From assembly GCA_918797485.1 (NCBI GenBank), contig CAKKNE010000005.1, forward strand, positions 3,906,001-3,970,000: a stretch of DNA of 64,000 bases. Direction: 5' to 3'. Numbering within the stretch: position 1 is the stretch's first letter; each line of letters begins with the position of its first letter. This DNA comes from Pelagomonas calceolata. Taxonomy: Eukaryota; Sar; Pelagophyceae; Pelagomonadales; Pelagomonadaceae. Shown here piece after piece: positions 6,887 through 61,845 of the stretch. The notes under the pieces were generated by a model. It did no database searches and was not told where the DNA came from. It was given only the letters and a program-made list of their open reading frames with translations. The position numbers and the translations under genes were made by a program.

Positions 6887-6909
6887 GCTAGCGGCCGTAA
6901 GACACTAGC
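6887..6909 (-). promoter_or_regulatory. dyad promoter element, copy 1
   Basis: Read on the minus strand: GCTAGTGTCTTAC, then GGC, then CGCTAGC. It faces the RWDD1-like gene, about 215 bases before its start. Confidence 0.6.
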
Positions 6910-8362
6910 CTCAACTCGGCACAGCATGCAGCCGTTTGAGCATCCTTCAGTTCGCTAATGGTCCAAAGAGATCAATGGGACACTTACTGGGGGCCGAGAA
7001 AATAATTTTTTTAATTCACGATATTGACGGTCCCGCCATGACGGCCGTGCCGGTGGAAACCTGTCAATCCGTGGTCCTGAGGACTCCCTGGGGTCGTCCA
7101 GGGTCGGTACTATACACGTGCAATCGCCTACGCCGCATGTGCGGGCGCTTCCATCGTAGATACATATCAGTACAGGTCCTCAGCCAATTTTCGGGCCAGA
7201 GCCCAAGTCCCCCAGGTTTTCGACCCAGAGCTCTCTGGAGAGCCCCAAGCACCGGTGCATGCGGCGTCGGCGACTACCCGACCTTAGACCTATCCCGGAG
7301 GCCTCCAGGAGCCGATCTGCCCCCGAAAAAAGTGTGCAATTTGGACCCGATGGCGCCCCGTTCCCGTCAAAAACGTCAATTACCCGACGGCCTCCAGTAG
7401 TCGCCGTAGCGGTCTCGTTGGACCCCATACTACCCCAGCGATAGTCAACTACAAGTATATGACATCTACATTATAAGAAGGGTACTTTTGGCTGCCCACG
7501 CTCGGGACGTGAACATCTTGATCTGGAGCTCGCGTAAGTCAATCGATCATGAAACAAATGATCGCGTTATGGTCCATGGTAATGATAGACGGGCTGATGG
7601 TCGCAGGTCCGGGTCTGGAGCCAAATCTAGCCAGATCGTGGGCTCGCGAGACCGAGGACCCGCGCCGAGCATCTTGGGGTCGCGGAGCAATGTAGTACAC
7701 GCTCAGGCCGTTTAGCTGGCCCGTCCCACTACTAAAGCGCCTGAAATGCAAATTTATTATACAAAGTACCGGTCTGGATCCTTTCCAGTGCCCCGCGTAC
7801 GCACCGTCGCCCGCGGAGAACGGGCAAGTCGGTCGATCGTGAATAGAACAACGGCGTTATGATCCATGTATATAGTGACGTCGCTGATACTCGCGGGTTC
7901 AGCATCTGGTCTCGTTTTTGTAGAAACGCTGGGTCACGAAGTCTCCGTTTCGGGCGGCCCTAACGGGTCACTTGATATAACTCAGTCACGCCGAGGCGAT
8001 TAAGCTGGACTCTACCACTAACAAACGGAAGGAAACGAACATAAACTCGGGAGTTGTCTCGTAGAATTCTTTTCCCGCCCTCCGAGCGCGGGCCGTCGGC
8101 TCCGGTTCCGTCGAATGTGTATGAAAACTGGGCTGGAGTTGATATAATGTACCATTTGGACGGTAAAAGGCGGCGTCAATCGCTGGTGTACTTTGGCATG
8201 TCTTAAGACTCATCCGCGAATGTCGCGGGCGGTGCCTTCCGGGAGGCGCGAGGGTATGTTCCCAGGCCGCTACTCTGAAATATTTGGCCTCGGCGAACGA
8301 CCGAGATGTATTTTGAATTTGAATCATTCTTTTGACGCTATCGAGGCGTATCTTTTGAATTT
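6910..8362. other. gene-free stretch, lower GC
   Basis: About 1.45 kb without a convincing gene. Open frames are short and composition is more even than in the flanks. It contains the diverged direct repeat described separately. No transposase, tRNA or rRNA segment was recognised. Confidence 0.5.
7530..8030. repeat. diverged direct repeat, about 200 bases, period about 290
   Basis: Copy A (about 7530-7740) and copy B (about 7820-8030) share ordered blocks at a constant offset of 289-290 bases: TCAATCGATCATGAA against TCGGTCGATCGTGAA, GCGTTATGGTCCATG against GCGTTATGATCCATG, and TTAGCTGGCCCGTCCCACTA against TAAGCTGGACTCTACCACTA. The copies are well diverged and noncoding. They may be remnants of a satellite or of a dispersed repeat inserted twice. 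Confidence 0.6.
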
Positions 8363-8385
8363 CCTAGTATGTCGATTACGCTAGC
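8363..8385 (+). promoter_or_regulatory. dyad promoter element, copy 2
   Basis: CCTAGTATGTCGATTA then CGCTAGC. A weaker match with outer arms intact. It faces the PPOX-like gene, about 178 bases before its start. Confidence 0.5.
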
Positions 8386-8562
8386 CCCGCTCACCAGCTC
8401 CGGGAGAGGCTTGACTGGTTGCATTTGACTGCTAGTAGGTGCGGTTTTATATCGTATCGCTACGGCATCGCTCGTAAATTGAGCTATGCGGAACCAAGCG
8501 ACCGCACCATAGCAATTTTAGAGCTTTGCGCAAAGCAATCTGCAGGCTGACAGCTAGCACTA

Positions 8563-9234
8563 ATGTACGCCGCCCGCGCGCGCGTCGGTGCGGCTGCCAT
8601 GGCGACCGTCGCAACGCCCGCGGCGGCGTCCTGCTTCTTCGGCAGGGCGCAGCCGAAGCCGCACGAGGGCCCTGTCACGACCGCGTCGGCGCTCGTGAGC
8701 GCGCGCTCCATCCTGGACGCCGCAGGCATCGGGTTCGTCTGCACCAGATCGTCAGACGGCGCCCCTTGCTGCCGCGTAATGGACGTCAGGCGGCTCGACG
8801 ACACACGGCTGTCCTTTTCGCTCGTGACGCGGACCTGCACGAGAAAGGCGGCGCAGTTCGCCGCCGATTCGCGCGTCACTCTAGCTTTTCACGACCCGCG
8901 GGCGGCCGGCGAGAACGGCTACGTGGCACTCTCGGGGCGCGTCCGCGAGGTCGTTGAAAAGGACGCGCGGCGGGCTGTCTGGAAGGACTCGTGGACGCTG
9001 TTCCACACGGCGCCCGAGGTCCTGCCGCCGGACAGCGACGTCCTCGTCTACGTCTTCGAGCCCGACCGCCTGGAGCTGGTCGACAACGAGCGGTGGCTCC
9101 GCGGCGACTGGCGGCCCGTGACGCTCGTCCGGACCCGCGACGACTGGGAGCCGGCGCCGGCACCGCCACGGGCGGCGCGGGTCGCGGCGACCGCCGCGGC
9201 GCGCCGATCCGCGGCGCCCCCGCCAAGTATGTAA
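8563..9234 (+). CDS. pyridoxamine-phosphate-oxidase-like (FMN split-barrel) protein
   Basis: 223 residues, or 211 if the second Met (8599) is used. The centre carries the split-barrel pattern of stress-protein-26-type PPOX proteins: CCRVMDVRRLDDTRLSFSL, then TRKAAQFAADSRVTLAFHD, then GYVALSGRVREVVEKDARR and a late WRPVTLVR. These small proteins bind FMN or related flavins and may act as oxidoreductases; a role in vitamin B6 synthesis is not implied. The C-terminal 35 residues are Ala/Arg/Pro-rich and probably disordered. The Ala-rich N-terminus could be an organelle presequence. Confidence 0.75.
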   Translation: MYAARARVGAAAMATVATPAAASCFFGRAQPKPHEGPVTTASALVSARSILDAAGIGFVCTRSSDGAPCCRVMDVRRLDDTRLSFSLVTRTCTRKAAQFAADSRVTLAFHDPRAAGENGYVALSGRVREVVEKDARRAVWKDSWTLFHTAPEVLPPDSDVLVYVFEPDRLELVDNERWLRGDWRPVTLVRTRDDWEPAPAPPRAARVAATAAARRSAAPPPSM

Positions 9235-9326
9235 TAAATTGTCAAGTCCCGCCCAGGAAATTTACCCGGAGCCTGTATATTTCGATAGTCGAAAGAAAGG
9301 ACCTCTTAAGGAAGGGGGAGAACGCA

Positions 9327-12300
9327 CTAGCGCCCGCGCCGCCGCCGCGGCGCCGCCGAGTCGCACCAACAAATCAAGATGTAGCCGATGACGTCCGCGA
9401 GGAAGTCCGCCCGGTCGCCCTCCTCGACGATCATCTTGAGCACCCAGACGGCCATGGAGTTCATCATCTTCTCCCACTTCGTGAGGCCCTGGCGCCAGCC
9501 CTCGAGCAAGTCCACGCGCCGCGCGTGCGTCGAGTAGTAGCGCGCGAGCTGCCCCAGCGTGTGCACGCAGCTCGCCAGCGGCGTCGGGTCGTACTTCGCC
9601 AGCAACGCCTCCCAGGCGGCCTTGGTCCTTCTACCAGAACCGTCGTCGGGCCGCGCGCGCAGCGCGGGGTCGAGCTTGTCCCGCGCGGCCTCGCAGATGA
9701 GCGCCACGCACTTGTCGCGCTCGCAGGCGAACTGGCGCTCGCGCGGCGGTTGTGGAGCGCGCGGCGCGCGCGGGACGCGCGGCGCCGCGGGCCGCTTCTG
9801 TGGTGGAGCGCTTCCGGGCGGCCGGGTCCCGTTTTGGCAGGACTTGCCGTGCTGCACGGCCGCGGGCGCGTGGGCGAAGGTCCGTGGACAGCCGGCCGGG
9901 CACGGGAAGCAGCCCCGCGCGTCGCGCGGGCCGAGCGACGGGCCCACGATGCTGCGGTCGCGTTGCTTGGGCGCGCGCGGCTGGTAGTAGACCGGCGCGT
10001 AGACGGGGCGGCGCTTCGGCTTGGGCGGCGCCGGCTTGGGCGCCGGCGCGGGCGCGGGCGGCGGCGGCGCCGCGGCCATGTCCCCGATCGTCGCGGCGTT
10101 CGCCGTCGCGCCGCCGAGCTTGAGCGTCAGCGTCGCCGTCTGGGGCGCCGGGGCCGGGGCCGGCGGCGGCGCGGGCGCGGGCGCCGCCGGCGCGGGCGGC
10201 GGCGCGGGCGGGAGCAGCGATGTCATGGAAGGCGGCGCGGCGGGCGCCGGCGCCGGCGCGGCCGGCGCGGGGGCCGCCGGCTCCGCCGGGGCCGGCGCGG
10301 CCGCCGGCGCCGCGGCCGCCGGTTCCGGAGCGGCCGGCGCGGCCGCGGGCGGCGGGAAGGGCGCGCAGGCCGCGGGCGCCGGCGCGCACGCCTGCGCAGT
10401 TACTGGAGCGGGCTTGGCCCCCGGCGGGCAGCAGGCGCATCCTAATAAGTGGCCCGCCTTCAGGAACGCGAAGGGCTTGTCTTGGCCCGGCGGCTTGGGC
10501 GGCGGCTCCTTGAAGCCCTCGCGCCGCTTCGCTCTTACGTCGTCCGTGACGCCGCGCTTGTAGGACCGGACTTGCGCTCGGAGAGCCATGGGCAGGACGG
10601 CGTCGCCCGCCCGCACGTCGTCGGGCGGCGGCGCGACGTGGAAATATCTAAAAACACTTCGGGGACCGGTCGCGGCCTGGTCGTACGTGCCGACAATTAA
10701 CCCCACAAAGGGCGCCGGGCCGTCCTTCGCGTCGTCCTCGAAGAGCGTCTGGTACTGCCTTTGGTTCTCGATGTCCGTTACTGAAGGCTCGGCCATGAAT
10801 CTAGGATGGCTGTGGTACCATCCCACAACATCGAGGTCCCTTCCTCGGATCACTTCTCGGACTTGCAATTCTGAGACCGGATCCATCTCGACATCGGTCG
10901 CACCGTCATCATCGCGCGGCACGGCCCTACAAGGGAACGGCGCCTGCACGTGCATCTCCCGCGTTTCCGGGTCCCAGCGCCCCCCAAGCAACCCAATAAT
11001 CTCCGCATCGCACAGATGCGCGTGCAAGTCGCACAAGAATGCCACGTCGGGGTGCACTCGTAACGACAAGGGCTGCTTTTCCTCTTCTTCCACCGCTTCT
11101 GCCCCTTCAACTTTCTCCCCATAAGCTTCACAAGCAACTAACGCGTGGGGGTCGAACTGGTGCGCGTTCAACCCCTCCATGAGCTGGGCCACTCTCAATG
11201 ACGCGTCTCTCCTATTGGAAGGTCGTCGGCGCGACCGCGGCGCGGCGTCCTGCACATCTAATCCTGAGGCCGTGAGCTCATCAGTAAACGGCCCGTCCCA
11301 GTAGCCCGCGTCCGTGAAGTAGCCCTCGTCCCACACTCTTTTGGGTTCGCCCCGCGCGGCCGTCGGCGCCGGCGCCGGCGCGTCGCCCGCTGGCGCGGGC
11401 GCCGCCGTCGGGTCCTCCTCGGTGTTCTCGAGCCAGTAGTCCGCAAGAGGGGTGCTTTCGTCCACTACTGGTGATGCAGGCGGCGGTAATGGTTGCTGTA
11501 CTTTGGGCGTGGGCTTGCGCCTCCTAGGTCTAGGCGCCTCGTCGGTCGCCGGTCTTTTCCGCTGCCGCACGGACCGGTCGGCCATCAGGTCGTCGCGCGT
11601 CCACCAGCTGTTGCCGCAGTAGGTATATCCCGAGTAGTTCGCCGTCATCTTGCCTCGGACCCTAGGCGGTCTTCCTGAAACGGACTGTGGGGGCCGCTTG
11701 CGCTTCGAGGGCTCATTTAGCAAAGCGTGCAATCTCTTGCCCGTCCGCGCGTGGACCACACAGGCCCAGGCCTTCTGGGGGTCCGGTCTTCTCTCTCGTC
11801 TCGCTCCCCTATCTTGTCGCGCTTTGTCGACGAAGCCCTCGACGGTGCGGAAAGCGCTACCGCCATACACCACTCTCCCTTCCCGATCGATCTCGCCGCG
11901 CACGCTCTCCACGCCGCCGATCTCCAAGACTACGACGTCGCCCGCATCCACTAATCGCTCGGCGAGCAGACCCGATAGTTGCGGGGCATTCGGTTGGGGC
12001 TCGTCTGCGAACGGCGCTCCCAAAGCATCTTGCAGGATGCCCAGGGCTCTTAATCGAGCAATATTGTGATCCTCGGCACCTACGCACTGGCGCAGGCCGT
12101 CTACTACTTCCACGGGTGCTTTCGCCTCGAGAGCCAACCGTAAAGCCCTTGCTAAAGTCGCGCGGACGTCTTTTGGTCGTTCTAAATCTCGCACCGCAAA
12201 CAAGCAGGCGTCCCAGGTCTCCGTCGTGGCGCCGCTGCGCGGCAGCCGTAGCGGCGCTTTATCACTGGAATGCGGTCTATGAGAGTGTAATCGCCGCGCG

Positions 12301-12635
12301 TTCAGCGCCCGAGCCTCGCCAATAGCAGCTAGTAACTGCTTCTGGACGGCTTCATCACACGCACCTAGCGAAGGCACGTCCTCCCAGGGCCGCGCGTCGT
12401 CCGCCGAGAAGACGGCGAGCTCATAGTGCTTGAGGAAACAGGCCACGAAGTCTCCAGCGGCGAGACTAGGCCGGTCTTCAGAAGACACAGGCAGCTCCCA
12501 CTGCTCCACGTCGTCCCAGGACGCGAAGGCGACGCAGGGCCACCATGGCCGCCCGGCGACGCGGCACCAGACGACGTCGCCCGTCTCGATGGTTTGCGGC
12601 GTCGTCGCTTGCGGTGGTGGTTGCTCCTCGCCCAT
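9327..12635 (-). CDS. PWWP and JAMM (MYSM1-like) domain protein
   Basis: A 1,102-residue single-exon frame. Residues about 17-90 form a PWWP domain with VVWCRVAGRPWWPCVAF, a reader of methylated histone H3 on DNA. The middle has a conserved SGYTYCGNSWW segment and disordered linkers. About 535-690 is a JAMM/MPN+ metalloprotease domain: EIIGLLGG supplies the Glu and GWYHSHP...PSVTD the His-x-His and Asp zinc ligands (about 608-621), so it should be active. EMDPVSELQ followed by VVGWYHSHP matches MYSM1, the histone H2A deubiquitinase. A long Ala/Pro region follows, then a Cys/His patch (CFPCPAGCPRTF) and a hydrophobic C-terminus. The usual SANT and SWIRM domains of MYSM1 were not seen; PWWP takes their place. 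Confidence 0.85.
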   Translation of the reverse strand: MGEEQPPPQATTPQTIETGDVVWCRVAGRPWWPCVAFASWDDVEQWELPVSSEDRPSLAAGDFVACFLKHYELAVFSADDARPWEDVPSLGACDEAVQKQLLAAIGEARALNARRLHSHRPHSSDKAPLRLPRSGATTETWDACLFAVRDLERPKDVRATLARALRLALEAKAPVEVVDGLRQCVGAEDHNIARLRALGILQDALGAPFADEPQPNAPQLSGLLAERLVDAGDVVVLEIGGVESVRGEIDREGRVVYGGSAFRTVEGFVDKARQDRGARRERRPDPQKAWACVVHARTGKRLHALLNEPSKRKRPPQSVSGRPPRVRGKMTANYSGYTYCGNSWWTRDDLMADRSVRQRKRPATDEAPRPRRRKPTPKVQQPLPPPASPVVDESTPLADYWLENTEEDPTAAPAPAGDAPAPAPTAARGEPKRVWDEGYFTDAGYWDGPFTDELTASGLDVQDAAPRSRRRPSNRRDASLRVAQLMEGLNAHQFDPHALVACEAYGEKVEGAEAVEEEEKQPLSLRVHPDVAFLCDLHAHLCDAEIIGLLGGRWDPETREMHVQAPFPCRAVPRDDDGATDVEMDPVSELQVREVIRGRDLDVVGWYHSHPRFMAEPSVTDIENQRQYQTLFEDDAKDGPAPFVGLIVGTYDQAATGPRSVFRYFHVAPPPDDVRAGDAVLPMALRAQVRSYKRGVTDDVRAKRREGFKEPPPKPPGQDKPFAFLKAGHLLGCACCPPGAKPAPVTAQACAPAPAACAPFPPPAAAPAAPEPAAAAPAAAPAPAEPAAPAPAAPAPAPAAPPSMTSLLPPAPPPAPAAPAPAPPPAPAPAPQTATLTLKLGGATANAATIGDMAAAPPPPAPAPAPKPAPPKPKRRPVYAPVYYQPRAPKQRDRSIVGPSLGPRDARGCFPCPAGCPRTFAHAPAAVQHGKSCQNGTRPPGSAPPQKRPAAPRVPRAPRAPQPPRERQFACERDKCVALICEAARDKLDPALRARPDDGSGRRTKAAWEALLAKYDPTPLASCVHTLGQLARYYSTHARRVDLLEGWRQGLTKWEKMMNSMAVWVLKMIVEEGDRADFLADVIGYILICWCDSAAPRRRRGR

Positions 12636-12945
12636 CGCGTCGCGTTCTTGGCGCGCGGGCGGCTGGTTCGCGCGGAGTTTCGGCCTTCAGGTTCGGGCGG
12701 CGCTGCGGGCGCACGCGGGCGCGGCGCTGCGGGCGCGCGTGCGCTGCGCGGTTGTATTGGTGGTGTGGTGCTGCGCGCGGGCAGTGCGGCGGGCTGGGGC
12801 AGCGTCTTGCGAGGCGAGCTTGGCTTGTTTGTGAGACGCTCTAGTGCGGGAAGCTAGCGTTCGGGGTATGTCGTCTTCGAGCCTTGCCGACGTTTCGCTT
12901 CGTCTAAGGACACTTGAGCAGTCGCGCCTCAGTTTTTGGCTGCTT

Positions 12946-12969
12946 GCTAGTGTCTTACTGGCCGCTAGC
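12946..12969 (+). promoter_or_regulatory. dyad promoter element, copy 3
   Basis: GCTAGTGTCTTAC, TGGC, CGCTAGC. It lies in the 497-base divergent gap and faces the gene starting at 13133, 163 bases on. No other feature was seen in this gap. Confidence 0.65.
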
Positions 12970-13132
12970 ACGATTCTATTAAATTTTTGGCTGCTTGTTT
13001 GCGCGCGTTGGTTCATAGCGCTCGCGTACTATCGCAGCGCTCGCTAATCGCAGCGCTCGCGCGCGACCCGCCAACTTGCCGTTTGCTGCGTGCCCAGAAT
13101 TGCTGCACGGCCAACTGTGCGCCCCTAGCGCC

Positions 13133-14176: not shown

Positions 14177-14303
14177 TAAGTGAAATTCAAGTCCTTGCGA
14201 GCGCACGCCCGGCCGCCCCCATACGCCATCGCCCCGAGTGTTAGCTCGGAGGCGACCGACGGCGCGGGCACAGGTTCGTTTAGTGAATTCACAAGTTACA
14301 CAG

Positions 14304-17898: not shown

Positions 17899-17967
17899 GT
17901 AATTAATTGTGTGTTGAAGCGAAAAGTTATTACTCATCGGAACGGATAAAACAAAAACAAGGCGAGA

Positions 17968-20011: not shown

Positions 20012-20035
20012 GCTAGTGTCTTACTCTCACGCTAG
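20012..20035 (+). promoter_or_regulatory. dyad promoter element, copy 4
   Basis: GCTAGTGTCTTAC, TCA, CGCTAGT. It lies in the 456-base divergent gap and faces TAF7, 225 bases before its start. Nothing else was recognised in this gap. Confidence 0.65.
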
Positions 20036-20259
20036 TTAACTCGCCCGCGGTGTGCTTTGGAGGGCCGCTTGCGCCGCAAGGGCTGCAAAACTCTCCAGCG
20101 GAGCATCGGCAGATTCATTTCTCGACGGGCGACGCGCTTGAGTGTGCGAGAAACGGGAGCAGCTGCGCACCGCTGCAGAGCGAGCGCCTCAGCGCCTCAG
20201 GCCAGCGACTGCGCGACGCCGCCGCAGCGCGCGCACGCCGCCGCCGCCCTGTGCAGAAT

Positions 20260-21733: not shown

Positions 21734-21758
21734 GCTAGTGTGTTACAAAAACGCTAGC
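21734..21758 (+). promoter_or_regulatory. dyad promoter element, copy 5
   Basis: GCTAGTGTGTTAC, AAAAA, CGCTAGC. It lies in the 459-base gap after TAF7 and faces the Derlin gene, 235 bases before its start. The rest of the gap shows nothing recognisable. Confidence 0.65.
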
Positions 21759-24161: not shown

Positions 24162-24185
24162 CCTAGCGTCAACAATCACACTAGC
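24162..24185 (-). promoter_or_regulatory. dyad promoter element, copy 6
   Basis: Minus strand: GCTAGTGTGATTGTTGA, CGCTAGG. It faces the DUF4239-like gene, 197 bases before its start. Confidence 0.6.
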
Positions 24186-25289: not shown

Positions 25290-25313
25290 ACTAGCGTCAT
25301 GTGAGACACTAGC
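25290..25313 (-). promoter_or_regulatory. dyad promoter element, copy 7
   Basis: Minus strand: GCTAGTGTCTCACATGA, CGCTAGT. It lies in the 328-base divergent gap, 153 bases before the DNL gene; the CHORD gene starts 153 bases on the other side. Confidence 0.65.
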
Positions 25314-26491: not shown

Positions 26492-27184
26492 TTACCTATT
26501 CTTAGATATGCTCCGGAGGTCCTCCCGGAAGTCCTCGTAGTCAATATTGCCGCTCTTGAGCGACGCGACGCGCTTCGGGTCCTGCCTTCTTAACTCAAGC
26601 TCGGCGTCGATGGCGTCGGCGATCGTCGGGTTGCGCTGCGACCGCGCGGCGTTGCAGGGCGTACACGACGCCGTGTTCGACGCCTTGCCCCGCAGCTCCA
26701 GATTCGGGCCCTTCGAGAGGATCCAGAGCGCGCAGTGGTACTCGCCGTTGTACGCCGCGGCCCAGATCGGCGTGCAGCCGTCCGCGTCGACGGCGTCCAG
26801 ATTTATGTCAGGCCGCTGCACGAGCCACCGTACCATCGGCAGGTGGCCCTCGGCCGCCGCCCAGTGCAGCGCCGTCCAGCCGTCTCCATCCGCACTGTTG
26901 AGGAGCTTTTCGCGGTCGCCGCCCCGTCCGTCCTGGCCCTTTTCTAGTAATTTCTCGGCCGCCTGGATGTCCGCGTACAGCTTGGCGCCGGCCTTCTGCG
27001 CGCCCTTGACGTAGGCGCCGCACGCGATGCGGAAGTCCTGGTCGCGCTGTTCTCTTTTGGTCAGGTTTCTAGGCTTCGGTTTTCGCGGCGACGGCGGGCC
27101 GCTCGTGAGGTGATCGAACCTCGCTTCCAGGGCTGCGGCCGCCAGCCTTTTGGAAGCTGCGATGGCTCTGAAGGAGTCGGCCAT
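26492..27184 (-). CDS. small ankyrin-repeat protein
   Basis: 230 residues from 27184 (MADSFRAIAASKRLAAAAL). Two or three ankyrin repeats occupy about 105-185 (DGWTALHWAAAEGHLPMVRWLV, DGCTPIWAAAYNGEYHCALWIL). They are followed by NPTIADAIDAELELRR, a C-terminal helix seen after ankyrin repeats in other proteins. The N-terminal 100 residues are helical and basic. Its stop is 13 bases from that of the CHORD gene. Partner unknown. Confidence 0.75.
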   Translation of the reverse strand: MADSFRAIAASKRLAAAALEARFDHLTSGPPSPRKPKPRNLTKREQRDQDFRIACGAYVKGAQKAGAKLYADIQAAEKLLEKGQDGRGGDREKLLNSADGDGWTALHWAAAEGHLPMVRWLVQRPDINLDAVDADGCTPIWAAAYNGEYHCALWILSKGPNLELRGKASNTASCTPCNAARSQRNPTIADAIDAELELRRQDPKRVASLKSGNIDYEDFREDLRSISKNR

Positions 27185-27515
27185 CTTGGAGATGGAGCCG
27201 TATGGTGATCGGTACTGCTGCCTTTGGCTGCCCGCTGCGTTCGGCGTGCCTTGTATGCTTGCTCCCGCGCACTGGTTGGTCGCGGCAGGCCGAGTTAGGG
27301 TTCGCAGAGCGCCCCGGCGCCGGCCGCAGAGCAAAAATGAGTGCGGGTTGCAGACCGGAACTGGCGTCTCCTACTACTCAGCTGACCCGCGAGCAGATCG
27401 CTCTCGACTGTAGCCGGCCGCCTGGGCCGCGTGAGTAGGCGCCCGACGACGACCGCGCGCCCGGCCGCCAGCAAAATGAGTAAAAAGCACAACACAAAGT
27501 TAGCGGCACAAGATC

Positions 27516-28083: not shown

Positions 28084-28108
28084 GCTAGCGTTCGATAGAC
28101 ACACTAGC
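28084..28108 (-). promoter_or_regulatory. dyad promoter element, copy 8
   Basis: Minus strand: GCTAGTGTGTCTATCGAA, CGCTAGC. It lies between the small gene at 27516-27878 and the RING gene, pointing at the former. Confidence 0.6.
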
Positions 28109-30976: not shown

Positions 30977-30999
30977 GCTAGCGTCGTATGGATGCTAGC
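30977..30999 (-). promoter_or_regulatory. dyad promoter element, copy 9 (variant)
   Basis: Minus strand: GCTAGCATCCATACGA, CGCTAGC. A nearly perfect palindrome at its ends, in the 497-base gap between PUS1 and AspRS; it points at PUS1, 265 bases away. Confidence 0.5.
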
Positions 31000-34599: not shown

Positions 34600-34623
34600 G
34601 CTAGCGGCCTGTAACACACTAGG
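34600..34623 (-). promoter_or_regulatory. dyad promoter element, copy 10
   Basis: Minus strand: CCTAGTGTGTTAC, AGGC, CGCTAGC. It faces the NADAR-FHA-RRM gene, 170 bases before its start. The rest of the gap to 34,912 shows no gene. Confidence 0.65.
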
Positions 34624-35502: not shown

Positions 35503-35526
35503 GCTAGTGTCTTACATACCGCTAGC
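35503..35526 (+). promoter_or_regulatory. dyad promoter element, copy 11
   Basis: GCTAGTGTCTTAC, ATAC, CGCTAGC. It faces the gene at 35548, only 21 bases before its start, the shortest spacing in the window. Confidence 0.65.
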
Positions 35527-38195: not shown

Positions 38196-38217
38196 GCTAG
38201 TATGTCACAACGCTAGC
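38196..38217 (+). promoter_or_regulatory. dyad promoter element, copy 12
   Basis: GCTAGTATGTCACAA, CGCTAGC. It faces the BASS transporter gene, 87 bases before its start. It is followed by an imperfect GAGGAAAGGAGA tandem run at about 38,225-38,260. Confidence 0.6.
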
Positions 38218-41089: not shown

Positions 41090-41113
41090 GCTAGCGTGCA
41101 CTTACATACTAGC
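41090..41113 (-). promoter_or_regulatory. dyad promoter element, copy 13
   Basis: Minus strand: GCTAGTATGTAAGTG, CACGCTAGC. It lies in the 338-base divergent gap and faces the FAD monooxygenase, 155 bases before its start. Confidence 0.6.
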
Positions 41114-45059: not shown

Positions 45060-45084
45060 GCTAGTGTCTTTACAGACCGCTAGC
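45060..45084 (+). promoter_or_regulatory. dyad promoter element, copy 14
   Basis: GCTAGTGTCTTTAC, AGAC, CGCTAGC reading with one extra T. It lies in the 352-base divergent gap and faces the ankyrin gene, 183 bases before its start. Confidence 0.65.
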
Positions 45085-47571: not shown

Positions 47572-47725
47572 GGCAGCGATCTAGCCCTTGCGAGCACACA
47601 AATGCACTACTGTCTTCGACCGCTGGATCTGCGCCCGATAAGAAGCAGTCCTGCGTGACACACAGGCAATGGTGCAGCACCTTGGTCCTACAGCTGGTTT
47701 GATACGCGCCCACGAGCCAGCATTT

Positions 47726-47747
47726 CTAGCGTGTCGAGACACACTAG
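47726..47747 (-). promoter_or_regulatory. dyad promoter element, copy 15
   Basis: Minus strand: CTAGTGTGTCTCGACA, CGCTAG; nearly a full palindrome. It lies in the 312-base divergent gap and faces the SDR gene, 155 bases before its start. Confidence 0.65.
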
Positions 47748-47883
47748 CCAAATCGGTATTTATCCGAAGGCCACCCGTCGCTAGGAAGCATCCCTCCGAC
47801 CCCTCCCCGCGCACGGCTCGGAGCTTCGAATACCCGACATCAGCGTTCACGGTTTGCTTTAAGCGGCTGCGAAGCAAGGCAAA

Positions 47884-51203: not shown

Positions 51204-51526
51204 CCAGGGAGCTGCCGCACCTGTCGATCTGCAACGCTGCGCCTCCGAACGAGTCGAGTCGCGTCGACTGGCGTCCGGCGGAGGCCGTCCGCTTGCGCTT
51301 AAATGGGCGGCGCTGCAGATGTGCAGCTCAGGGAGAGGCTTTTTGCCGCGCTAGGGTCTTCCGAACCATTCCGGGCGGAGACTTCAAAACGCGGAAGGAT
51401 GCGGAGACCGAGGTATGACTCCAGTTCGGCCGGATACTAGGCCTCTCGATTCGGGGCAGCCTGTCCAAACCACAGCGCTCTCCCGCGGAGCCGCGCCTGC
51501 CAGCAAACGAGACCACAGACAGGACC
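51204..51526. other. divergent intergenic region without the dyad element
   Basis: 323 bases between divergent starts. A GCGCTAGGGTCTTCCG fragment at about 51,348 recalls half of the dyad, but no second arm is present. Nothing else was recognised. Confidence 0.35.
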
Positions 51527-53140
51527 ATGATCGCGAGCCGCACCGCCGCCCTGACCGGCGCGGCCGCCTGCGGCAACGACTCCGTGGTCCGCGACATCCT
51601 GCGGCCCCAGCGCGAGGGGCAGGTCCGCGAGCGCACCGACGGCGTCGGCGTGGACTCGCGCGAGCCGACGAGCGGCCGCACGGCGCTGCATTTTGCTATT
51701 TTAAACGATCGTTTGACGACGGTGGACCTCTTACTGTCTCTGGGCGCCGACCCGACGATCGCCGACGGTTCCGGAAGGAGGGCCTGCCACATGTGCGTCG
51801 TGCCGAAGCGGCACCAAATCTTAGACCTCATCCTGGCGACGGCCGCGGCGCGGGGCGAGGTCGACGTCGTGCTCGGGGCGCGCGACGCCCTCGCGCGGTG
51901 TCCCCACCACCTGGCGGCCGCCAAGGGCGACAAGGCGGCCGTCGCGACGATCCTCGACGCGAAGCCGGACCTGCTGAACATGGGAGATTGCACGGGCCGC
52001 ACGGCCCTCTGGCTCGCGTGCGCGCGGGCCTGCGAGACGTCGGGCCCGGCGCGCGAGGCCTTCGTGGCGACGATGGATCTGTTGATGCGGCGCGGCGCGG
52101 ACCCGAACGTGCGCGACGCCGAGCGGGGCGAGACGCTGCTGGGCTGGCTCGCGCGGACCGGCGAGGCGGCGACGGTCCGGCGCGTGCTCCGGGACTTCGA
52201 CGGCGCGTGGGGCCCGCGCGTCGAGCTCGACGTCCTCGACACCTACTTGGAACGGTCTCCCTTGGACTGGGTCGCCCTGCGCGCGGAGCCGGCGGCCGGT
52301 GCGTTTTCCGGCGTCTTTGTCTTCGACCCCACCAGAACGCCATCGCCGCGACAACAACAACTCACCGCTCGACAAAACGCAGGCGAGGAGGGCCGGCCGC
52401 CCTACGACCCGGCGTGCTGCCTCGCGTTGGTCGACGGCGGGGCGCGCGTGGGCGAGCGGCACGAGGCCTTGATCGCGCGGGCCCGGACCGAGGACCTGCC
52501 GCCCATCCCGGATTTTGAGAGGGAGAAGAGTCTGCACGTGCTGCACACGCGGCTGCGGCAGGTGGCCCACTCTAGATTGGACGTGCACGACGACGACGAG
52601 AACGAGGACGCTGCCGTCGAGCGCCTCGAGGCGAGCCTGGACGCGTACAACACGGCCGACGGCGAGGACGCGCCGCTGTCGCTCGTCGACTTCCACGCGG
52701 CGCTGCGCGGCGCGTTGCGGGTGAAGCCGTCGCTGGCGAACGACCACGACGTGAGCCAGGTCTGGGCGCGCCTCAACAAGCACGGCCAGACGGCGTCGGC
52801 GCGGACGTTCCTGAAGTGGGTCGGCCTCGCCAAGAAGCACGCGAAGAAAGTGGAGGACTCCAAGAGGGCTTCGAAAATGATGACGATGATTGGTAGCGCC
52901 TCGGCCTTCTCGTCGGGCGCGGGCGGGAAATCGTTGCTCATGAGAATTGCCGAGGCCGAGGGTCGTGAGACCGTCACGCGGGTCCTGAAGACCGACGACT
53001 TTGATGTCCAGGAAACGATCAAGGAGATGGCGTGGACGTCCGGCGCGTGGCGTGAAACCGAGGAGGAGATGTACCACACGTTCCTGGCGACGCGTAACAC
53101 GTCGTCGGCGAAGGGGAAGAGGAAGGGGACGCGGAGGTAG
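51527..53140 (+). CDS. ankyrin-repeat protein
   Basis: 537 residues as one frame, about 509 without the candidate intron 52299-52382. Ankyrin repeats fill about 1-250: SGRTALHFAILNDRLTTVDLL, SLGADPTIADGSGRRACH, HHLAAAKGDKAAVATILDAK, GRTALWLACARAC and MRRGADPNVRDAERGETLLG. The C-terminal half is helical (SLVDFHAALRGALRVKPSL, then KMMTMIGSASAF) with a GGKSLLMRIAEAEGRE segment, of no known family, and a Lys/Arg tail. A scaffold role is likely. There is no signal peptide. Confidence 0.7.
   Translation: MIASRTAALTGAAACGNDSVVRDILRPQREGQVRERTDGVGVDSREPTSGRTALHFAILNDRLTTVDLLLSLGADPTIADGSGRRACHMCVVPKRHQILDLILATAAARGEVDVVLGARDALARCPHHLAAAKGDKAAVATILDAKPDLLNMGDCTGRTALWLACARACETSGPAREAFVATMDLLMRRGADPNVRDAERGETLLGWLARTGEAATVRRVLRDFDGAWGPRVELDVLDTYLERSPLDWVALRAEPAAGAFSGVFVFDPTRTPSPRQQQLTARQNAGEEGRPPYDPACCLALVDGGARVGERHEALIARARTEDLPPIPDFEREKSLHVLHTRLRQVAHSRLDVHDDDENEDAAVERLEASLDAYNTADGEDAPLSLVDFHAALRGALRVKPSLANDHDVSQVWARLNKHGQTASARTFLKWVGLAKKHAKKVEDSKRASKMMTMIGSASAFSSGAGGKSLLMRIAEAEGRETVTRVLKTDDFDVQETIKEMAWTSGAWRETEEEMYHTFLATRNTSSAKGKRKGTRR
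52299..52382 (+). other. candidate in-frame intron, 84 bases
   Basis: It starts GTGCGTTTTC and ends AAAACGCAG, is a multiple of three without a stop, and holds the motif at 52337-52352 followed by a CTCAC at 52371. Its removal joins AEPAA to GEEGRPPYDPACC. The enclosed residues (FDPTRTPSPRQQQLTARQN) do not look like ankyrin sequence. Confidence 0.6.
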
Positions 53141-53210
53141 TCGTCGTTTGGGCGGGTAAGTATCTCACGTTCGCGGCACGCACGCGGCATATAGGCCTGA
53201 GGCCCCGGAT

Positions 53211-53232
53211 CTAGTGTGTCGACGACGCTAGC
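53211..53232 (+). promoter_or_regulatory. dyad promoter element, copy 16
   Basis: CTAGTGTGTCGACGA, CGCTAGC. It lies in the 562-base gap and faces the exon fragment at 53320-53478, 87 bases on. Confidence 0.55.
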
Positions 53233-53319
53233 CTTTATAGCCGAGGCCAAAAAAGGCCAGAGGACGGAAGACGACGCGCGTTACCGGCGTCCGCGCGTAC
53301 GGGACGGCGAGAAGGGTAG

Positions 53320-55875: not shown

Positions 55876-55960
55876 CCTGGCTAAGTTTACAGGGTACTTG
55901 TTTACATTACTTTCACCACAACATTCGCGCCTGGTTGCCTTGAGCCCCGGTTTCGCAGGT

Positions 55961-55983
55961 CTAGTGCCTTACTGGACGCTAGC
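55961..55983 (+). promoter_or_regulatory. dyad promoter element, copy 17
   Basis: CTAGTGCCTTAC, TGGA, CGCTAGC. It faces the UFD1-like gene, 106 bases before its start. Confidence 0.65.
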
Positions 55984-56089
55984 ATTATTGAAGGCACCGC
56001 AGCGCGACTTCAATCCACCTGTGTCCGACCGCTGGCCACCCAACATTCCATAACAGCAGCGCGTGAGACCCGCAATCCACACCAGAACC

Positions 56090-57480
56090 ATGCGCATCCA
56101 CCACGCGCTCCTCTGCCTCGCCGGCGTTGCAGCCATCACGCCGCGCGGCACCAAAGCCCTCCGCCTAAGAGGCGGTACCTTTTGTGAGTTCGAGGCCAAG
56201 CAGACGGGCGAACAATGTGGTATTGAGGAGCCCGAGAAGGAGGTCGTCAAGACTATCAAGGCCTCCGTGCTCTTTCCGTTCAAGGTGCTTGGTATCCGCG
56301 GCGGCTCCGACGAGGCCGATGAGGAAGACGAGGACGACGTCGACGTCGACGAGGAGGAGGCGGCGGATTTCCGCTGAGCGCCGGAGCCGCGCGGTACAAG
56401 TGCCTCCACAGACGAAGACGAATAGCGCGCCCCGCCGTATCTCTCCGCGGCGGCAGCGACATCTACGATGATGCTGACATCGAGGATGATGCTGATAAAG
56501 GCGCGGAAGGAGAGCTCGCCGGCGCCGGCGTGGAATGGGTGACGGCCAAACTCGAGGCAGCGGCCGCGGCGTTGGGCAAATCCACTGGCCTCGAACAAGC
56601 CGCACGACGAGCGAGATTAGAACAGCGCGTCGAGGACTATAATGCCTTGCAAAAGGCCTCGGGCACGTTTCACCGAGCGGTCTTAGTGTTACCGCTCACG
56701 CCCGAGTTCGATCCGCCGCGCGGCCAGCCGGGCCACGGTCGCGTCCAGTTCTCGGACCGCGTCTCCGCGTCGGCGAGCGTGGGCAAGGAGCTCACGAGGC
56801 GCGCGCTGGAGGTGCCGTGGCATTTCAAGCTCGAGCCGCTGGCCCGCAACGACGACGAGGAGCTCGTCGAAGAGCTGGGGTTCGAGGAGGTGCGGCCCAC
56901 GAGGATATTGGGCAAGGACCCTTTGAATAGACCCCTAAAAGCTCGAAATGGCGACGCGTTGGGGTCGGGCATCGGCGTCGTGCCGCCCCTGAAACGCGTG
57001 TTCTGCTCGCCTTTGGACTTCCGCGCGCCGGAGAACTTCCTGTTCGTGCCGCTATGGATGCTACGCGCCTTACGAGCAAAGCCGTACGACGTCGTCTTCA
57101 TGACGTGGGTCAAGCTCAACGACGGCGTCACCATTGAATTGCAGCCGCACCAGGACGCGTTCCTGAAGCTCGCGAACCCGCGTAGCGTCCTCGAGAACGA
57201 GCTCAAGTACTACTCGTCGGCGACGCGCGGGTCGACGATCTCCTTGCTCTACGAGGGCAAGCAGTACGACTTCGACGTGACGGACTGCGTCGGCCGCGAC
57301 GGCACGCAGCTCGACGCGTACAACCCCGAGCGCTGCGAGGGCGTCGCCATCCAGGACGCAGACGTTTCGCTTGATCTCGCGGCGCACGGCCTCGACAAGC
57401 CGCCCCAGAAGCAGCAGAAGGTTGCGGCGGACGGGGACGACGATGACGAGGAGGATGAGGATGAGGAGGAGGAGTCGTAA
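56090..57480 (+). CDS. UFD1-like protein with signal peptide (likely symbiont-type ERAD)
   Basis: Two frames, 56090-56377 and one open from before 56398 to 57480, best read as one gene with an intron between them; the exact splice is not resolved. The first gives a signal peptide (MRIHHALLCLAGVAAIT) and ALRLRGG, then acidic linker. The second holds the UFD1 core: FLFVPLWMLRALRAKPYDVV, VTIELQPHQDAFLKLANPRSV, LENELKYYSSATRGSTI and LLYEGKQYDFDV. UFD1 with NPL4 recruits Cdc48 to ubiquitinated clients. A signal peptide suggests the plastid-surface SELMA machinery. The alternative is two neighbouring genes. Confidence 0.65.
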
Positions 57481-57489
57481 GGATCCTTG

Positions 57490-57512
57490 GCTAGCGGCTG
57501 TAAGATACTAGG
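57490..57512 (-). promoter_or_regulatory. dyad promoter element, copy 18 (opposite orientation)
   Basis: Minus strand: CCTAGTATCTTAC, AGC, CGCTAGC. It is the one copy that clearly does not face the next gene, the plus-strand F-box gene starting 117 bases on. Confidence 0.55.
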
Positions 57513-57628
57513 GATGCCTAGCCAAAGGGGAGCTGCGACGTGATTGGCAGCCGTCTCGAGCGCTGTCGTCTCGAGCGCTGTGGTTCATACACATTGCTCA
57601 GCACGAACGGCATCGCTGCGCTAGTGCG

Positions 57629-58720
57629 ATGCCACGCCAATTGCCGCCGGAGCTGATCCTGCAGGTTGGACAGTATGGGGACTGGCGCGGTGTCGTGAGT
57701 CTGCAGCGCGTTAGCAAAAGCATCCGCGCGTTGCTCGCCAAGGACACGAATCCCGAGCAGAATATCATCTGGCGCCACTGCGTGCAAGACCGCTGGGACT
57801 GGGTGCGTCAGGACGACGCGTGGCTAGCCACGCTCGGCAACTGGCGGCGCGCGTACGCGTACCTGCGGTGCGTCGGATTCGTCGCACGCGCGTCGAAGTA
57901 CGAGAATGACGAAGGTCCTTTCAGTCCTAGGACGCCGTCGCTGCGGGCCTCGAGGCCGCAGCAATATCTCTGTGTCCCGTCTGCTCCAATGTCGCTGGTC
58001 GAGGAATGCGCCGCGTCGGAGGAACCGCTGGCCGAGGAGGAGTGTAGCTGGTGTCGGAAATATCAACCCACACTGCGCAGATTTACTACGGCGTACGTGC
58101 GGCCGGGGTTTCTCCCGTTTTCTACGGCGTACATGTTCGATCATCCGGGGTTTCGCCCGGGAAATTACGTCTGGGAGGCGAAGTTCACGGTGCACGCGCC
58201 CCGCGGCGTGCTTTTGGGCGTCGAAACGGAGTGGGGACGGTGCTTCTACTTTGACATTGGGAACTGCCTCGGCAGGGTGATGGGCAGAGATGATGCAATC
58301 ATAATCGACGAAACTGGACCAATCATGGGTATGGAGGGGCCTTGGTTTCCGTATCTGCCCCCTGCCGACTCGCCGACGAGGGACCCGGCGCGACTGGTCC
58401 TCGTCGTCGACCTGTGGACACGCTCGCTTAGTCTCCACGCCGACCATGGTACGTACCAGGCCCACGTTTCCTCGCTGGGCCCTACACTCTGGGCGCCTCA
58501 CAACCGCGTGCGTCTCTTCGTGGCCTTCCCGCGTGAGCCGCTTCCAGAAAATCCGGCCCCGGGGGAAGCCGGGTATCTGTTTGGGGATCCCATCTGGGAC
58601 GAGCCATTTGGGTCAAGCCCCCGTTTTGGGTCGTCAATGACATGTGGGACGGGCGAGTGGGCCGACGGGGGGCCTCGCGGTCACGCCTTCCTGCACAGCA
58701 TCTGCCCGGTCCCGCGATAA
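57629..58720 (+). CDS. F-box-like protein
   Basis: 363 residues. The N-terminus (LPPELILQVGQYGDWRGVVSLQRVSK then SIRALL) fits an F-box, which would join Skp1 in an SCF ubiquitin ligase. IIWRHCVQDRWDW follows as the usual first partner helix. The rest is a beta-rich region (YVWEAKFTVHAPRGVLLGVE, then FYFDIGNCLGRVMG) that resembles SPRY or lectin-like substrate-binding folds, without a clear family. Cys residues around 145-160 (EEECSWCRKYQP) could bind metal. Start chosen at the first Met before the F-box. Confidence 0.65.
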   Translation: MPRQLPPELILQVGQYGDWRGVVSLQRVSKSIRALLAKDTNPEQNIIWRHCVQDRWDWVRQDDAWLATLGNWRRAYAYLRCVGFVARASKYENDEGPFSPRTPSLRASRPQQYLCVPSAPMSLVEECAASEEPLAEEECSWCRKYQPTLRRFTTAYVRPGFLPFSTAYMFDHPGFRPGNYVWEAKFTVHAPRGVLLGVETEWGRCFYFDIGNCLGRVMGRDDAIIIDETGPIMGMEGPWFPYLPPADSPTRDPARLVLVVDLWTRSLSLHADHGTYQAHVSSLGPTLWAPHNRVRLFVAFPREPLPENPAPGEAGYLFGDPIWDEPFGSSPRFGSSMTCGTGEWADGGPRGHAFLHSICPVPR

Positions 58721-58824
58721 AGAACTAACAGTACTAGTACTTCTTCTTCATAGAAGTTGCCTCCGACCCGGACGGGACGACGAGGAAACGTCGCCGTCAC
58801 GCACTAGGAGTAAGAAACCTCAGA

Positions 58825-59919
58825 TTAGAGCGCAGGGGGCGCGGGGTCAGCCTCCACCGCTCGTCGGCGCCGCGGCGGTTCATCGGTCTGAAGCTCCGCG
58901 CCGAACCCCAGGGAGAAGGACATGTCGAGCGAGTCCAGCGTCGCCGCGACCTCGTCCATGCGCGTCGAGATCGAGCGGCTCGAGTTCGTCCACTCCCAGC
59001 GCTGGACGACCTGCGGCCAGTTCTCACGGGTTGTGGGTATAGGGATAGCATAATCGTGGCGTTTAACGCGGAGCACCGCCAGCTCCACCAAACCAGGGGT
59101 CCCGCGCGCGCCTCGGCACGTACATTCCAACCGCCCGAGCTCCTTCGCATTGAGCCTTGACACGATATCGAGGGCGACCTCGGCCGGCAGGTTCTCGAGG
59201 TCGCCGAACGGCGGGGTTTTTGGCAGCGGGCCGATGGGCGGCTTCGGCGGCGCCGGCACCGCGGCGGCGGCCTCGGCCGCGGCTGCCGCAGCGGCGGCGG
59301 CTGCCGCCTCCGCCGCGACCGCGGCCGCGTCGGCCGCTTGAGCGGCGGGATCCGGCAGCGTCGGAGCGTCTACAGGGGGAGGCGTCGTCGCGCCGGCGCG
59401 GTCGGGGGACGGACTACATAGCCTCTCGCGGCGCCGCTTGACGCGCGACGCGTCCTCGGCGTCGGCGTCGGCGTCGCTTTCGCTCTCGACAGGTTCTCGT
59501 TCCGGATTGCGTTTCGCGCCCCGCGACGTCCAGGCCGCGTCCATGGGTTTGGTGGACAGCCGCAGCGCGCCCAGTGCCAGCGCGGCCTCGCCGCCATCGC
59601 CCAGCTTGCGCCGGCGCGGCCGCGGCGCCGGCGCCGCAAATCGTATGGGCGTGACCGTGCCGTCCGACGGCCGCGCCGGGTCCTCGGTTTCCGTATCAGC
59701 CTCGTCGTCGTCTCCGGCGTCCGCAGCGTCGACGACACGCGGCACGCTGGTCCGCTTGAGCTCCTCGCAGAGGCCCGAGAGGCTCCCTAGCGTCGACGGG
59801 TCGAGGGCTCCAATTTTCACGAGCTCGAGCACGTCTTTCAAGCTCCTCTCAGCCGCGCGAAGAACAAGGGCCTCGGCGCCCGCCGCGGGGCGTCCGCCCG
59901 CCGCGGGGAGTCCAGGCAT
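58825..59919 (-). CDS. F-box protein with long disordered N-terminus
   Basis: 364 residues from 59919 (or 374 from 59949). Residues 1-60 form a helical part (RSLKDVLELVKIGALDPSTL). The middle is acidic, then Ala-rich with a run of about 15 Ala (about 215-230). An F-box lies at about 250-295: LENLPAEVALDIVSRLNAKELGRLECTCRG. The C-terminal 80 residues have no recognised domain. Likely an SCF ligase adaptor. Its dyad element faces this start 247 bases away. Confidence 0.7.
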   Translation of the reverse strand: MPGLPAAGGRPAAGAEALVLRAAERSLKDVLELVKIGALDPSTLGSLSGLCEELKRTSVPRVVDAADAGDDDEADTETEDPARPSDGTVTPIRFAAPAPRPRRRKLGDGGEAALALGALRLSTKPMDAAWTSRGAKRNPEREPVESESDADADAEDASRVKRRRERLCSPSPDRAGATTPPPVDAPTLPDPAAQAADAAAVAAEAAAAAAAAAAAEAAAAVPAPPKPPIGPLPKTPPFGDLENLPAEVALDIVSRLNAKELGRLECTCRGARGTPGLVELAVLRVKRHDYAIPIPTTRENWPQVVQRWEWTNSSRSISTRMDEVAATLDSLDMSFSLGFGAELQTDEPPRRRRAVEADPAPPAL

Positions 59920-60165
59920 GGCTTTTTGCTGGCTTTTTGACGATGTCAAGCCAGGGATCCCCGGCCAACGGCGCGAGGTCGCTATAACGCAACTAGCTAG
60001 GCTTTTTGCTCGGTGACTTGTGCAAGGCCCTGTGCGGCCGCTGCGGCTAGAGGTGGTCTCGGTCGCGAACTATACGGAAGCTAGGAGCTATACGAAGCCT
60101 TCTACTGGCGCCTGGTCCGCTGCCGCGTACGATTAGTGCCAATTCAGCACGGCAAGCCGAGATTA

Positions 60166-60190
60166 CCTAGCATACCACATACATACTAGC
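60166..60190 (-). promoter_or_regulatory. dyad promoter element, copy 19
   Basis: Minus strand: GCTAGTATGTATGTGGT, ATGCTAGG; a weaker match. It lies in the 385-base divergent gap and faces the F-box gene ending at 58825. Confidence 0.5.
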
Positions 60191-60334
60191 AATTTTAAGC
60201 TCGACGCTGTTGTGCCAAGCTCCAGTTGGCTCACGCATCAGTTCGCACATTGAAATTGCAAAAGCTTGCTCTCTGGACGCTGTGCGCACTTTTGGGCAGC
60301 CTACTGTCACCGAACTGAGGGGCAGCCACAAGAG

Positions 60335-61531
60335 ATGGCAGCACTGTGGGACCTGTCGGACGACACGGTGCCGCCCCGCCGGACGCCGCGCCGCCGCCGC
60401 CGCGCTACTATCGACTGCGACGACTGGGCGCCGCCAAGACGCGGCATGGTGAACGCCGGCGCGCTCGCCGGCAAGCAGGGTGCTCTAGCCGACGGTCACT
60501 ACGACGCCCTGCTGACTGTCGGCGTCCGGCGTGACGCGCCCGTGGACGCCATCACGGCGGCGCTGCGGCAGGCGGCGGTGTCTGCGGGCCTCGACACCAT
60601 CGAGAGCGAGAGCGCTGGCTACGTCCGCGCTTCAGGCGTCGTGCTGCGGGCGGGCGACGCGCGGTGCGAGCTGCAGGTCTGCTGCTTCGGGTCGCGGCGC
60701 GTCGCGGCGGTGGCCGTCCGCGTTGCCCGCCGCGGCGCGCGCAACGGCGACGCCTGCGCGCGGCGCGTGGCGACGGCCGTCCGCGCGGTCTTCGCCGACG
60801 CGGACCTGCGGGAGGCGGACGACGCGGCGCCGAGGCGGCGCTACCGCGCGGACGGCGCCGCGTCCGATTCTGACGAGTGTGGCCCGGGGAGCGGAGGCCT
60901 CGACGCCCACTTCCTGGGCCAGCTCGACGCGGCGGCGCGCGACGCGGCCTTCGCGGCCCACGAGCACCGCGCGGCGTGGCTGGGCGCGGCCGCACGCCGC
61001 GCGGAACGCGTCGCGCAGCAGGCCTGCGCCGCCATGGGCTTCGCCGCGCCCGAGGCGGCCTCGCCGCCGCCGCCGCCGCCGCCGAAAGCCGCACAACCCC
61101 CGCCGCCGACGCGGCGCGGCTGCCTCCGGGGCGCCCACGCGGCCGTCGCGGCGCGGGAGCGCGACCTGGCCGCGGCACGAGCGGCCGCCGCCGTGCAAAC
61201 AGCGGACGAGGCGGCCTGGCGCGCGTGCGCCGGACGCGTCGCGGCGGCGAAGGAAGCCGTCCGGGAGTCGGTAGAGAGGCTCCGGCGGAACAGGCGGCCG
61301 GTCCTGCGGCTGGCGCGGGCGCTCGTGGACGAACAGCCAGCGGTTGTAGTCCTCCGTGGCGACGGCGTCGCAGTCGGGCGTCGCGACTACGGGGCTGTGG
61401 CGCGCGTCTGCCGGCTCGGCGACGGCGCGCTCCGCGTCGAATGTCGCGGCGGGTCGTTCGCGCTGCGGCCGGCGTCGTGCTCGACGGACGTCGTGTTGGC
61501 GGTCCTCCGGGCGGTGGTCTCGTGTGTGTAA
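60335..61531 (+). CDS. hypothetical Ala/Arg-rich protein
   Basis: 398 residues from 60335 (MAALWDLSDDTVPPRRTPRR). Residues about 60-150 look globular, with VGVRRDAPVDAITAALRQAA and CELQVCCFGSRRVAAVAVRV. A Pro run (about 240-260) and a long charged helix follow. The last 80 residues form a second globular unit (QPAVVVLRGDGVAVGRRDYG, then LRVECRGGSFALRP). No family was recognised. A copy of the last 40 codons lies about 1.4 kb downstream at 62818. Confidence 0.55.
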   Translation: MAALWDLSDDTVPPRRTPRRRRRATIDCDDWAPPRRGMVNAGALAGKQGALADGHYDALLTVGVRRDAPVDAITAALRQAAVSAGLDTIESESAGYVRASGVVLRAGDARCELQVCCFGSRRVAAVAVRVARRGARNGDACARRVATAVRAVFADADLREADDAAPRRRYRADGAASDSDECGPGSGGLDAHFLGQLDAAARDAAFAAHEHRAAWLGAAARRAERVAQQACAAMGFAAPEAASPPPPPPPKAAQPPPPTRRGCLRGAHAAVAARERDLAAARAAAAVQTADEAAWRACAGRVAAAKEAVRESVERLRRNRRPVLRLARALVDEQPAVVVLRGDGVAVGRRDYGAVARVCRLGDGALRVECRGGSFALRPASCSTDVVLAVLRAVVSCV

Positions 61532-61822
61532 AGTGAACGTATCTCGGACTTGTATGCTTCCTGTTCCGCGGAACAAAACTGAGCAAAATGCAACTGAGCC
61601 GGTGGGTGGTCCGACTCGGCTCTTACGACAGATAGGGACGGGTAGGAGCGGCAATGATCAATCTGGAGAGGTCGCCGGCAACCGGGGCGAGCGGCGCGCG
61701 AAGAAGAAGGGCGGCAAGAAGTCGCGCCGCCGCTGAGGGGCGTAAGGAGTCGGTCTCGAAGTGTTGCTACTTAGGTCCCTCCTCCCGCGCGGCGCCTAGG
61801 ACTTCTTGGCTTCTTCGTGCTT

Positions 61823-61845
61823 GCTAGTGTCTTACCGCCGCTAGC
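61823..61845 (+). promoter_or_regulatory. dyad promoter element, copy 20
   Basis: GCTAGTGTCTTAC, CGC, CGCTAGC; a perfect consensus. It lies in the 473-base gap and faces the gene at 62005, 159 bases on. The first part of the gap has an open frame ending in a Lys/Arg run (about 61,690-61,736) with no support. Confidence 0.7.

Follow-up and report, generated by a model that had tools for sequence, protein, structure and literature searches.

A two-armed CTAG dyad in Pelagomonas calceolata promoters as the probable site of an abundant general DNA-binding factor

General promoter factors with dedicated sites are known from several eukaryotes: the protein that binds the vertebrate CGCG element is BANP, and the sites of the yeast general regulatory factors are asymmetric or bipartite, with AT-rich flanks. 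In the available part of its description, the CGCG element (TCTCGCGAGA) occurs in vertebrate bidirectional CpG-island promoters, drives divergent starts at no fixed distance, and in mouse lies mostly less than 50 nt from the main start site (PMC6192621). The accessible portions of two yeast reports state that the general regulatory factors limit divergent non-coding transcription (PMC9481977, PMC6602560), and NF-Y, with its CCAAT box, is presented in the excerpted source as a general factor that keeps the nucleosome-depleted region open (PMC6624317). Here, we analyzed a stretch of 64,000 nucleotides of the Pelagomonas calceolata genome (G000:C5:3906001-3970000, hereafter the window), in which a dyad of two CTAG-containing arms recurs between genes. 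Going by its letters and positions, this dyad is probably the site of one abundant sequence-specific factor that would act at bidirectional promoters in a general regulatory or pioneer role. By analogy, it would work most like the CGCG element or the yeast general regulatory factor sites, anchoring a general factor at the center of a bidirectional promoter.

The P. calceolata genome analyzed here (own genome) has 32,445,274 bases in 8 contigs, and the GC content of the window is 63.9%; the part of the genome report available to us gives 6 nuclear and 2 organelle contigs with 63% GC for P. calceolata RCC100 (PMC9481584). Counts were made in a sample of 264 kb, comprising the 64-kb window and 200 kb of contig C1 (C1:1000001-1200000). 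Genes were predicted from sequence alone, as coding segments from a hexamer model trained on this sample; the segments cover 75-77% of the bases, and the gaps classed as tandem take in gaps between exons. Gene order frequently alternates: neighboring predicted segments are divergent in 61 cases, convergent in 61, and on the same strand in 85, where pairs of exons from one gene are counted as well. The window genes are long open frames of mixed function, including an Na/Ca exchanger, TAFII55, CHORD, zf-DNL, a class II tRNA synthetase, a pseudouridine synthase, UFD1, bestrophin, and others.

The first-pass annotation of the window had listed 20 places with the two arms, and a CTAG...CTAG pair, 16-19 bp apart, is indeed present at all 20. 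The exact pattern that it gave, GCTAGTGTSTTAC-N3-7-CGCTAGC, holds at only five of them (12946, 21734, 35503, and 61823 on the plus strand and 6887 on the minus strand), while the other 15 are degenerate. Sites were counted with a profile of two blocks (13 and 7 columns) separated by a variable gap, which was trained and applied on the same 264 kb with a cut-off of 19 bits; the exact-pattern genome counts are independent of this profile. Nineteen of the 20 places score at least 19 bits (60166 just 19.0), the exception being the almost symmetrical site at 30977 with 17.6 bits, and sites below the cut-off, this one among them, were excluded from the counts.

The dyad is a real element, far above chance. 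The window contains 21 CTAG pairs 16-19 bp apart, whereas 300 windows simulated with a first-order Markov model averaged 1.46 and never held more than 5; the sample contains 62 profile sites of at least 19 bits, compared with 0.14 expected in intergenic DNA simulated with the same order of model. When both arms were searched for genome-wide, as the first-pass annotation had proposed, the exact pattern was found in 675 + 669 = 1,344 copies, and the reversed-pattern control in 0 + 0. With 16 exact copies in the sample, the genome total is roughly 5,200 sites (62/16 x 1,344), or about 7,600 when scaled by length, and the window, sample, and genome estimates give a density of about one dyad per 3-6 kb. 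A scan of IMG/VR with the strict pattern returned 0 matches. In the searches made, the dyad is undescribed, going by titles and abstract starts among open-licence papers, among the matches listed.

The consensus of the 38 sites with a gap of 4 is GCTAGTGTSTTAC-WGGM-CGCTAGC, which makes the dyad about 24 bp long, with its two CTAG cores usually 18 bp apart. Both half-sites read GCTAGYGK, the left one with TG and the right one with CG. Genome-wide, at spacers of 6-10, the unlike arms GCTAGTGT...ACGCTAGC occur 520 times, compared with 14 places for the like arms GCTAGTGT...ACACTAGC and 2 for GCTAGCGT...ACGCTAGC, these symmetric patterns matching both strands and being counted once. The gap has a length of 4, 3, 5, 2, or 6 in 38, 13, 6, 4, and 1 of the 62 sites, respectively. 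This anatomy suggests a protein, or a heterodimer, that recognizes two different half-sites and tolerates some variation in their spacing, and because the arms differ, binding would be oriented. In 25 dyads of the genome (G000), the left arm is followed by CTGWA, and short inserts, mostly of 6, 9, or 10 bp, recur within the dyad; their types (CTGTAC, CTGAAGTAC, and CTGTAAGTAC) resemble excision footprints or a longer-spacing class. On a loose reading, a CCTG...CAGG-type insert stands between CTTAC and the right arm in 23 of the 37 long-gap copies (gap 7-30), and such inserts are perhaps footprints of a dyad-targeting element, or an alternative spacing.

The dyads lie outside coding DNA, as had been claimed: none of the 62 sites falls within a predicted coding segment. 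They are present in 39 of the 61 divergent gaps, 19 of the 85 tandem gaps, and 2 of the 61 convergent gaps. Copies equally common in coding DNA and convergent gaps would have spoken against an element, and the near absence of dyads from both supports one; it is also the concentration in promoters that marks the general regulatory factor class. Eight further loci on C1, picked by exact matches, comprised six divergent and two tandem gaps. Centering was measured in 37 divergent gaps with a single site, gaps with two sites or longer than 1 kb being excluded. By coding-segment edges, the dyad stands at a median fraction of 0.52 of the gap (SD 0.15 vs. 0.289 for a uniform distribution; KS p 0.044), and by the first in-frame ATG at a median fraction of 0.50 (SD 0.20; p = 0.0005 for an SD that small), with a median distance to that ATG of 169 bp on either side. 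Measured in this way on coding starts, the dyad takes the position of an element at the center of a bidirectional promoter.

The GC fraction is lower close to the dyad (0.57 up to 80 bp away) than farther out (0.62-0.67, to 600 bp). Within 40 bp of the dyad on each side, TTTTG (read outward) was the most enriched of the many words compared (25 vs. 6.0 expected). Comparison of the dyad flanks revealed no common sequence beyond a mild T-richness, which argues against a mobile repeat. The clearest further word of divergent gaps is GGCAGCC/GGCTGCC, which occurs there 61 times, in 34 gaps, at about seven times its density in coding segments; its distance from coding starts is not sharply defined.

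Scanning the contigs of prokaryote genomes with the strict pattern returned five contigs (L029-L033) filed in four marine bacterial metagenome-assembled genomes (CAJWEZ01, NZGT01, CAJWOS01, and CAJWHT01) under the names Spirochaeta, Desulfobacteraceae, and proteobacterium. By estimate, a few such matches are also expected by chance at equal composition; yet all five contigs share stretches with the own genome. L030 and L033 match it in blocks that are mostly 80-90% identical, and since these run along most of their length, the two appear to come from a Pelagomonas relative, mostly 10-20% diverged, and to have been misfiled. In L029, L031, and L032, the match is confined to the dyad-bearing part, which makes up about 1.6 of 8.0 kb (90-96% identity), 0.34 of 3.9 kb (89%), and 2.1 of 7.5 kb (94%), respectively; these three may likewise be misfiled, or be chimeric joins. 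The orthologous dyad is identical at 24 of 24 positions in L029 and L031 and at 21 of 22 in L032. At L030:2198, the dyad has substitutions and a spacer altered by 1 bp but is retained, one flank differing by a long insertion, and at L030:5352 a strong dyad stands in the same intergenic region of both genomes in opposite orientation, with flanks too diverged to align. At L030:4290 and both L033 sites, the comparison covered match coordinates only. In this small sample, the dyads show retention with turnover, which is compatible with a functional site and with one whose orientation is neutral.

Several short repeats were observed on the same contigs. A repeat of about 157 bp (L030:299-455) has at least dozens of matches in the own genome, 80-88% identical. 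A stretch resembling it by eye, at about L030:2090-2190, directly adjoins the L030:2198 dyad, and the own-genome site aligned there lacks this stretch. Short dispersed repeats at L033:1424-1545, 2251-2400, and 5889-5998 match many own-genome places, some having intron-like ends by eye, and are possibly introner elements, which the available part of the genome report suggests for P. calceolata (PMC9481584).

One of the readings offered at the outset was an abundant DNA-binding factor whose site is common to functionally unrelated genes; judged by the abundance of the dyad, its placement, and the mixed gene functions, it is the likeliest. One abundant protein or fixed heterodimer in the Pelagomonas nucleus would bind GCTAGTGTSTTAC-N2-5-CGCTAGC. 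Once bound, the factor would keep the AT-richer promoter center nucleosome-free, and two pre-initiation complexes would assemble on either side of it, the binding being oriented and the output not. More tentatively, and with more doubt than belief on our part, a single lineage-specific factor with some 5,000-7,600 dyads (extrapolated) might be the main organizer of nuclear promoter openness, the head-to-head gene layout, with its frequent alternation, being built round the dyads and each dyad serving two genes irrespective of its direction.

Some observations weigh against such a factor site. The dyad is not universal among divergent gaps: 21 of the 60 considered (gaps shorter than 60 bp being excluded from the 61) have no site at 19 bits, although four of these have a match of 16.7-17.9 bits. 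The 19 of 62 sites in apparent tandem gaps also fit poorly, and overlooked small genes could stand behind part of them. The site at L030:461 has no counterpart of at least 15 bits in the own genome, and the own-genome dyad L034:1347 is degenerate in L030. The identity of 89-96% over the matching parts of L029, L031, and L032 leaves conservation there with little power. Finally, the like-arm counts cover only the ...ACGCTAGC form and not the commoner ...CCGCTAGC form. A search for words specific to 16 dyad-less divergent gaps gave nothing convincing.

The first-pass annotation had reported that the TGTSTTAC side points toward the nearest gene in 18 or 19 of 20 cases, and the dyad would then be a directional core-promoter or start-site element positioning transcription of the pointed-to gene. 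This rule did not survive in the 264-kb sample, where no orientation preference was found. The original score was largely forced: a dyad in a divergent gap faces a gene start whichever way it is turned, and such gaps hold 12 of the 19 sites that were scored, or 13 of all 20 when 30977 is included. The pointed-to gene is the nearer one in only 19 of the 37 single-site divergent gaps by coding-segment edge, or 15 by first in-frame ATG. Among tandem sites, 13 of 19 in the window and C1 are directed downstream, as a directional element would require, but only 2 of 8 in other loci, giving 15 of 27 combined (L035 was excluded as an orthologue of L030:2198). The tandem call of L029 rests on a weak segment, its own-genome orthologue L042 being called divergent. 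In place of a fixed strand and distance to the served gene, the pointed-to ATG lies at widely varying distances (76-276 bp for the 10-90% range), the dyad stands mid-gap, and the homologous promoter region at L030:5352, whose flanks are not alignable, has it reversed. A directional element is thus quite improbable. The placement between units and the orientation-neutrality would fit equally an architectural, insulator, or replication-origin site, at which a factor separates divergent units or loads the replication machinery instead of activating, and the density is compatible with it as well. We nevertheless consider this unlikely, as dyads also occur in 19 of 85 tandem gaps and are nearly absent from convergent ones, which is expected of a promoter element.

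Two further explanations would dispense with a promoter factor. In one orientation, 5-8 bases of one arm are complementary to the other, and the two could form an RNA hairpin in 5' leaders (a GCUAG...CUAGC stem), with G-U wobble explaining the TG/CG asymmetry. However, in the 38 gap-4 sites none of 10 tested pairs significantly exceeded the shuffled expectation (lowest p 0.097), the outer pair fell below it (16 vs. 21.3), and the base opposite G is T in 36, A in 2, and C in 0; moreover, both orientations are free in divergent gaps. A hairpin is scarcely credible on these counts. As a candidate, a structured RNA element was rejected in the absence of compensatory changes, and ARAGORN and Rfam (gathering score) gave no match in the window. 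Debris or ends of mobile elements, such as introner elements or a miniature transposon, could account for the CCTG...CAGG-type inserts and the CTGWA left arms, which resemble excision footprints. Against this stand the flanks, with little in common but T-richness, the centering of copies in divergent promoters, the retention of orthologous copies, and the lack of any 60-350 bp element with CTGTAAG...CTTACAG ends in the 264 kb or L029-L033, so that an origin of this kind is very unlikely.

Compared with the described systems, the general-factor site proposed here resembles the yeast Abf1, Reb1, and Rap1 sites in being abundant in promoters of functionally unrelated genes, as well as in its asymmetric or bipartite build and AT-rich flanks, and we know of no sequence match between them. 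While the yeast factors limit divergent non-coding transcription according to the accessible portions of the reports cited above, the Pelagomonas dyads mostly have genes on both sides. The CGCG element is likewise palindromic and, in the available part of its description, a promoter element of housekeeping promoters among others, with divergent starts at no fixed distance (PMC6192621). It is symmetric, 10 bp long, and unrelated in sequence, whereas the Pelagomonas dyad has 24 bp, unlike arms, a variable spacer, and the median ATG distance given above. Identity with the CGCG element was rejected, since the dyad consensus GCTAGTGTSTTAC-N-CGCTAGC does not contain TCTCGCGAGA. The role of NF-Y at the CCAAT box, as far as the excerpted source goes, is similar to the one proposed, but its motif is unrelated to the dyad (PMC6624317). 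Common promoter motifs have also been described for oomycetes, another stramenopile group, in a paper whose main text, as available, contains no "palindrom", "bidirectional", "divergent", or CTAG, its motif tables not being compared (PMC3520976). Present in about two thirds of the sampled divergent gaps, a single signal of 24 bp provides a concrete handle on gene reading in this lineage. It can serve at once as a test sequence in expression constructs, and it offers a route to asking how reliance on bidirectional promoters arises in a genome.

The sites of the window illustrate the range of settings, the strand of each being that on which the TGT arm comes first. In divergent gaps, the dyad at 12946..12969 (+) has the exact consensus, with 37.3 bits and flanking coding segments at 262 and 196 bp. 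The one at 20012..20036 (+, 32.4 bits) lies between the Na/Ca-exchanger gene and the TAFII55_N (TAF7-like) gene, and that at 25290..25313 (-) between zf-DNL and CHORD, at 161 and 143 bp. Further divergent sites are 34600..34623 (-, 34.5 bits), 38196..38217 (+, gap 2, 97 and 84 bp), 41090..41113 (-, 178 and 133 bp, with a third CTAG 17 bp further), 45060..45084 (+, gap 5, found by the profile), and 47725..47748 (-, 150 and 147 bp), the last between a short-chain-dehydrogenase gene and a gene without a Pfam match. The exact consensus at 35503..35526 (+), matched by profile and exact pattern, has a divergent call that rests on a weak left segment. Two weak dyads complete this group: 60166..60190 (-, 19.0 bits), and the near-symmetrical 30977..30999 (no strand assigned, 17.6 bits) between the pseudouridine synthase and the class II tRNA synthetase (AsnRS-like).

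In tandem gaps, exact consensus dyads found by both profile and exact match stand at 21734..21758 (+) and 61823..61845 (+). Upstream of the bestrophin-like gene is 24162..24185 (-, 25.4 bits), and upstream of the UFD1-like gene is 55960..55983 (+, found by the profile). The site at 53210..53232 (+) scores 24.2 bits, and that at 57490..57512 (-, 32.3 bits) has its core directed away from the downstream gene. At 28084..28108 (-, 28.3 bits), the gap type is uncertain, the tandem call resting on weak segments. Apart from these tandem sites, an exact consensus dyad at 6887..6909 (-, 36.0 bits), with the edge of an RWD-domain coding segment 209 bp to its left, shares a predicted gap with the degenerate dyad at 8363..8385 (+, 22.5 bits), which has a TAT arm. 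The window also contains two ankyrin-repeat genes, at 51419-53137 and 26495-27370, which lie 24 kb apart.

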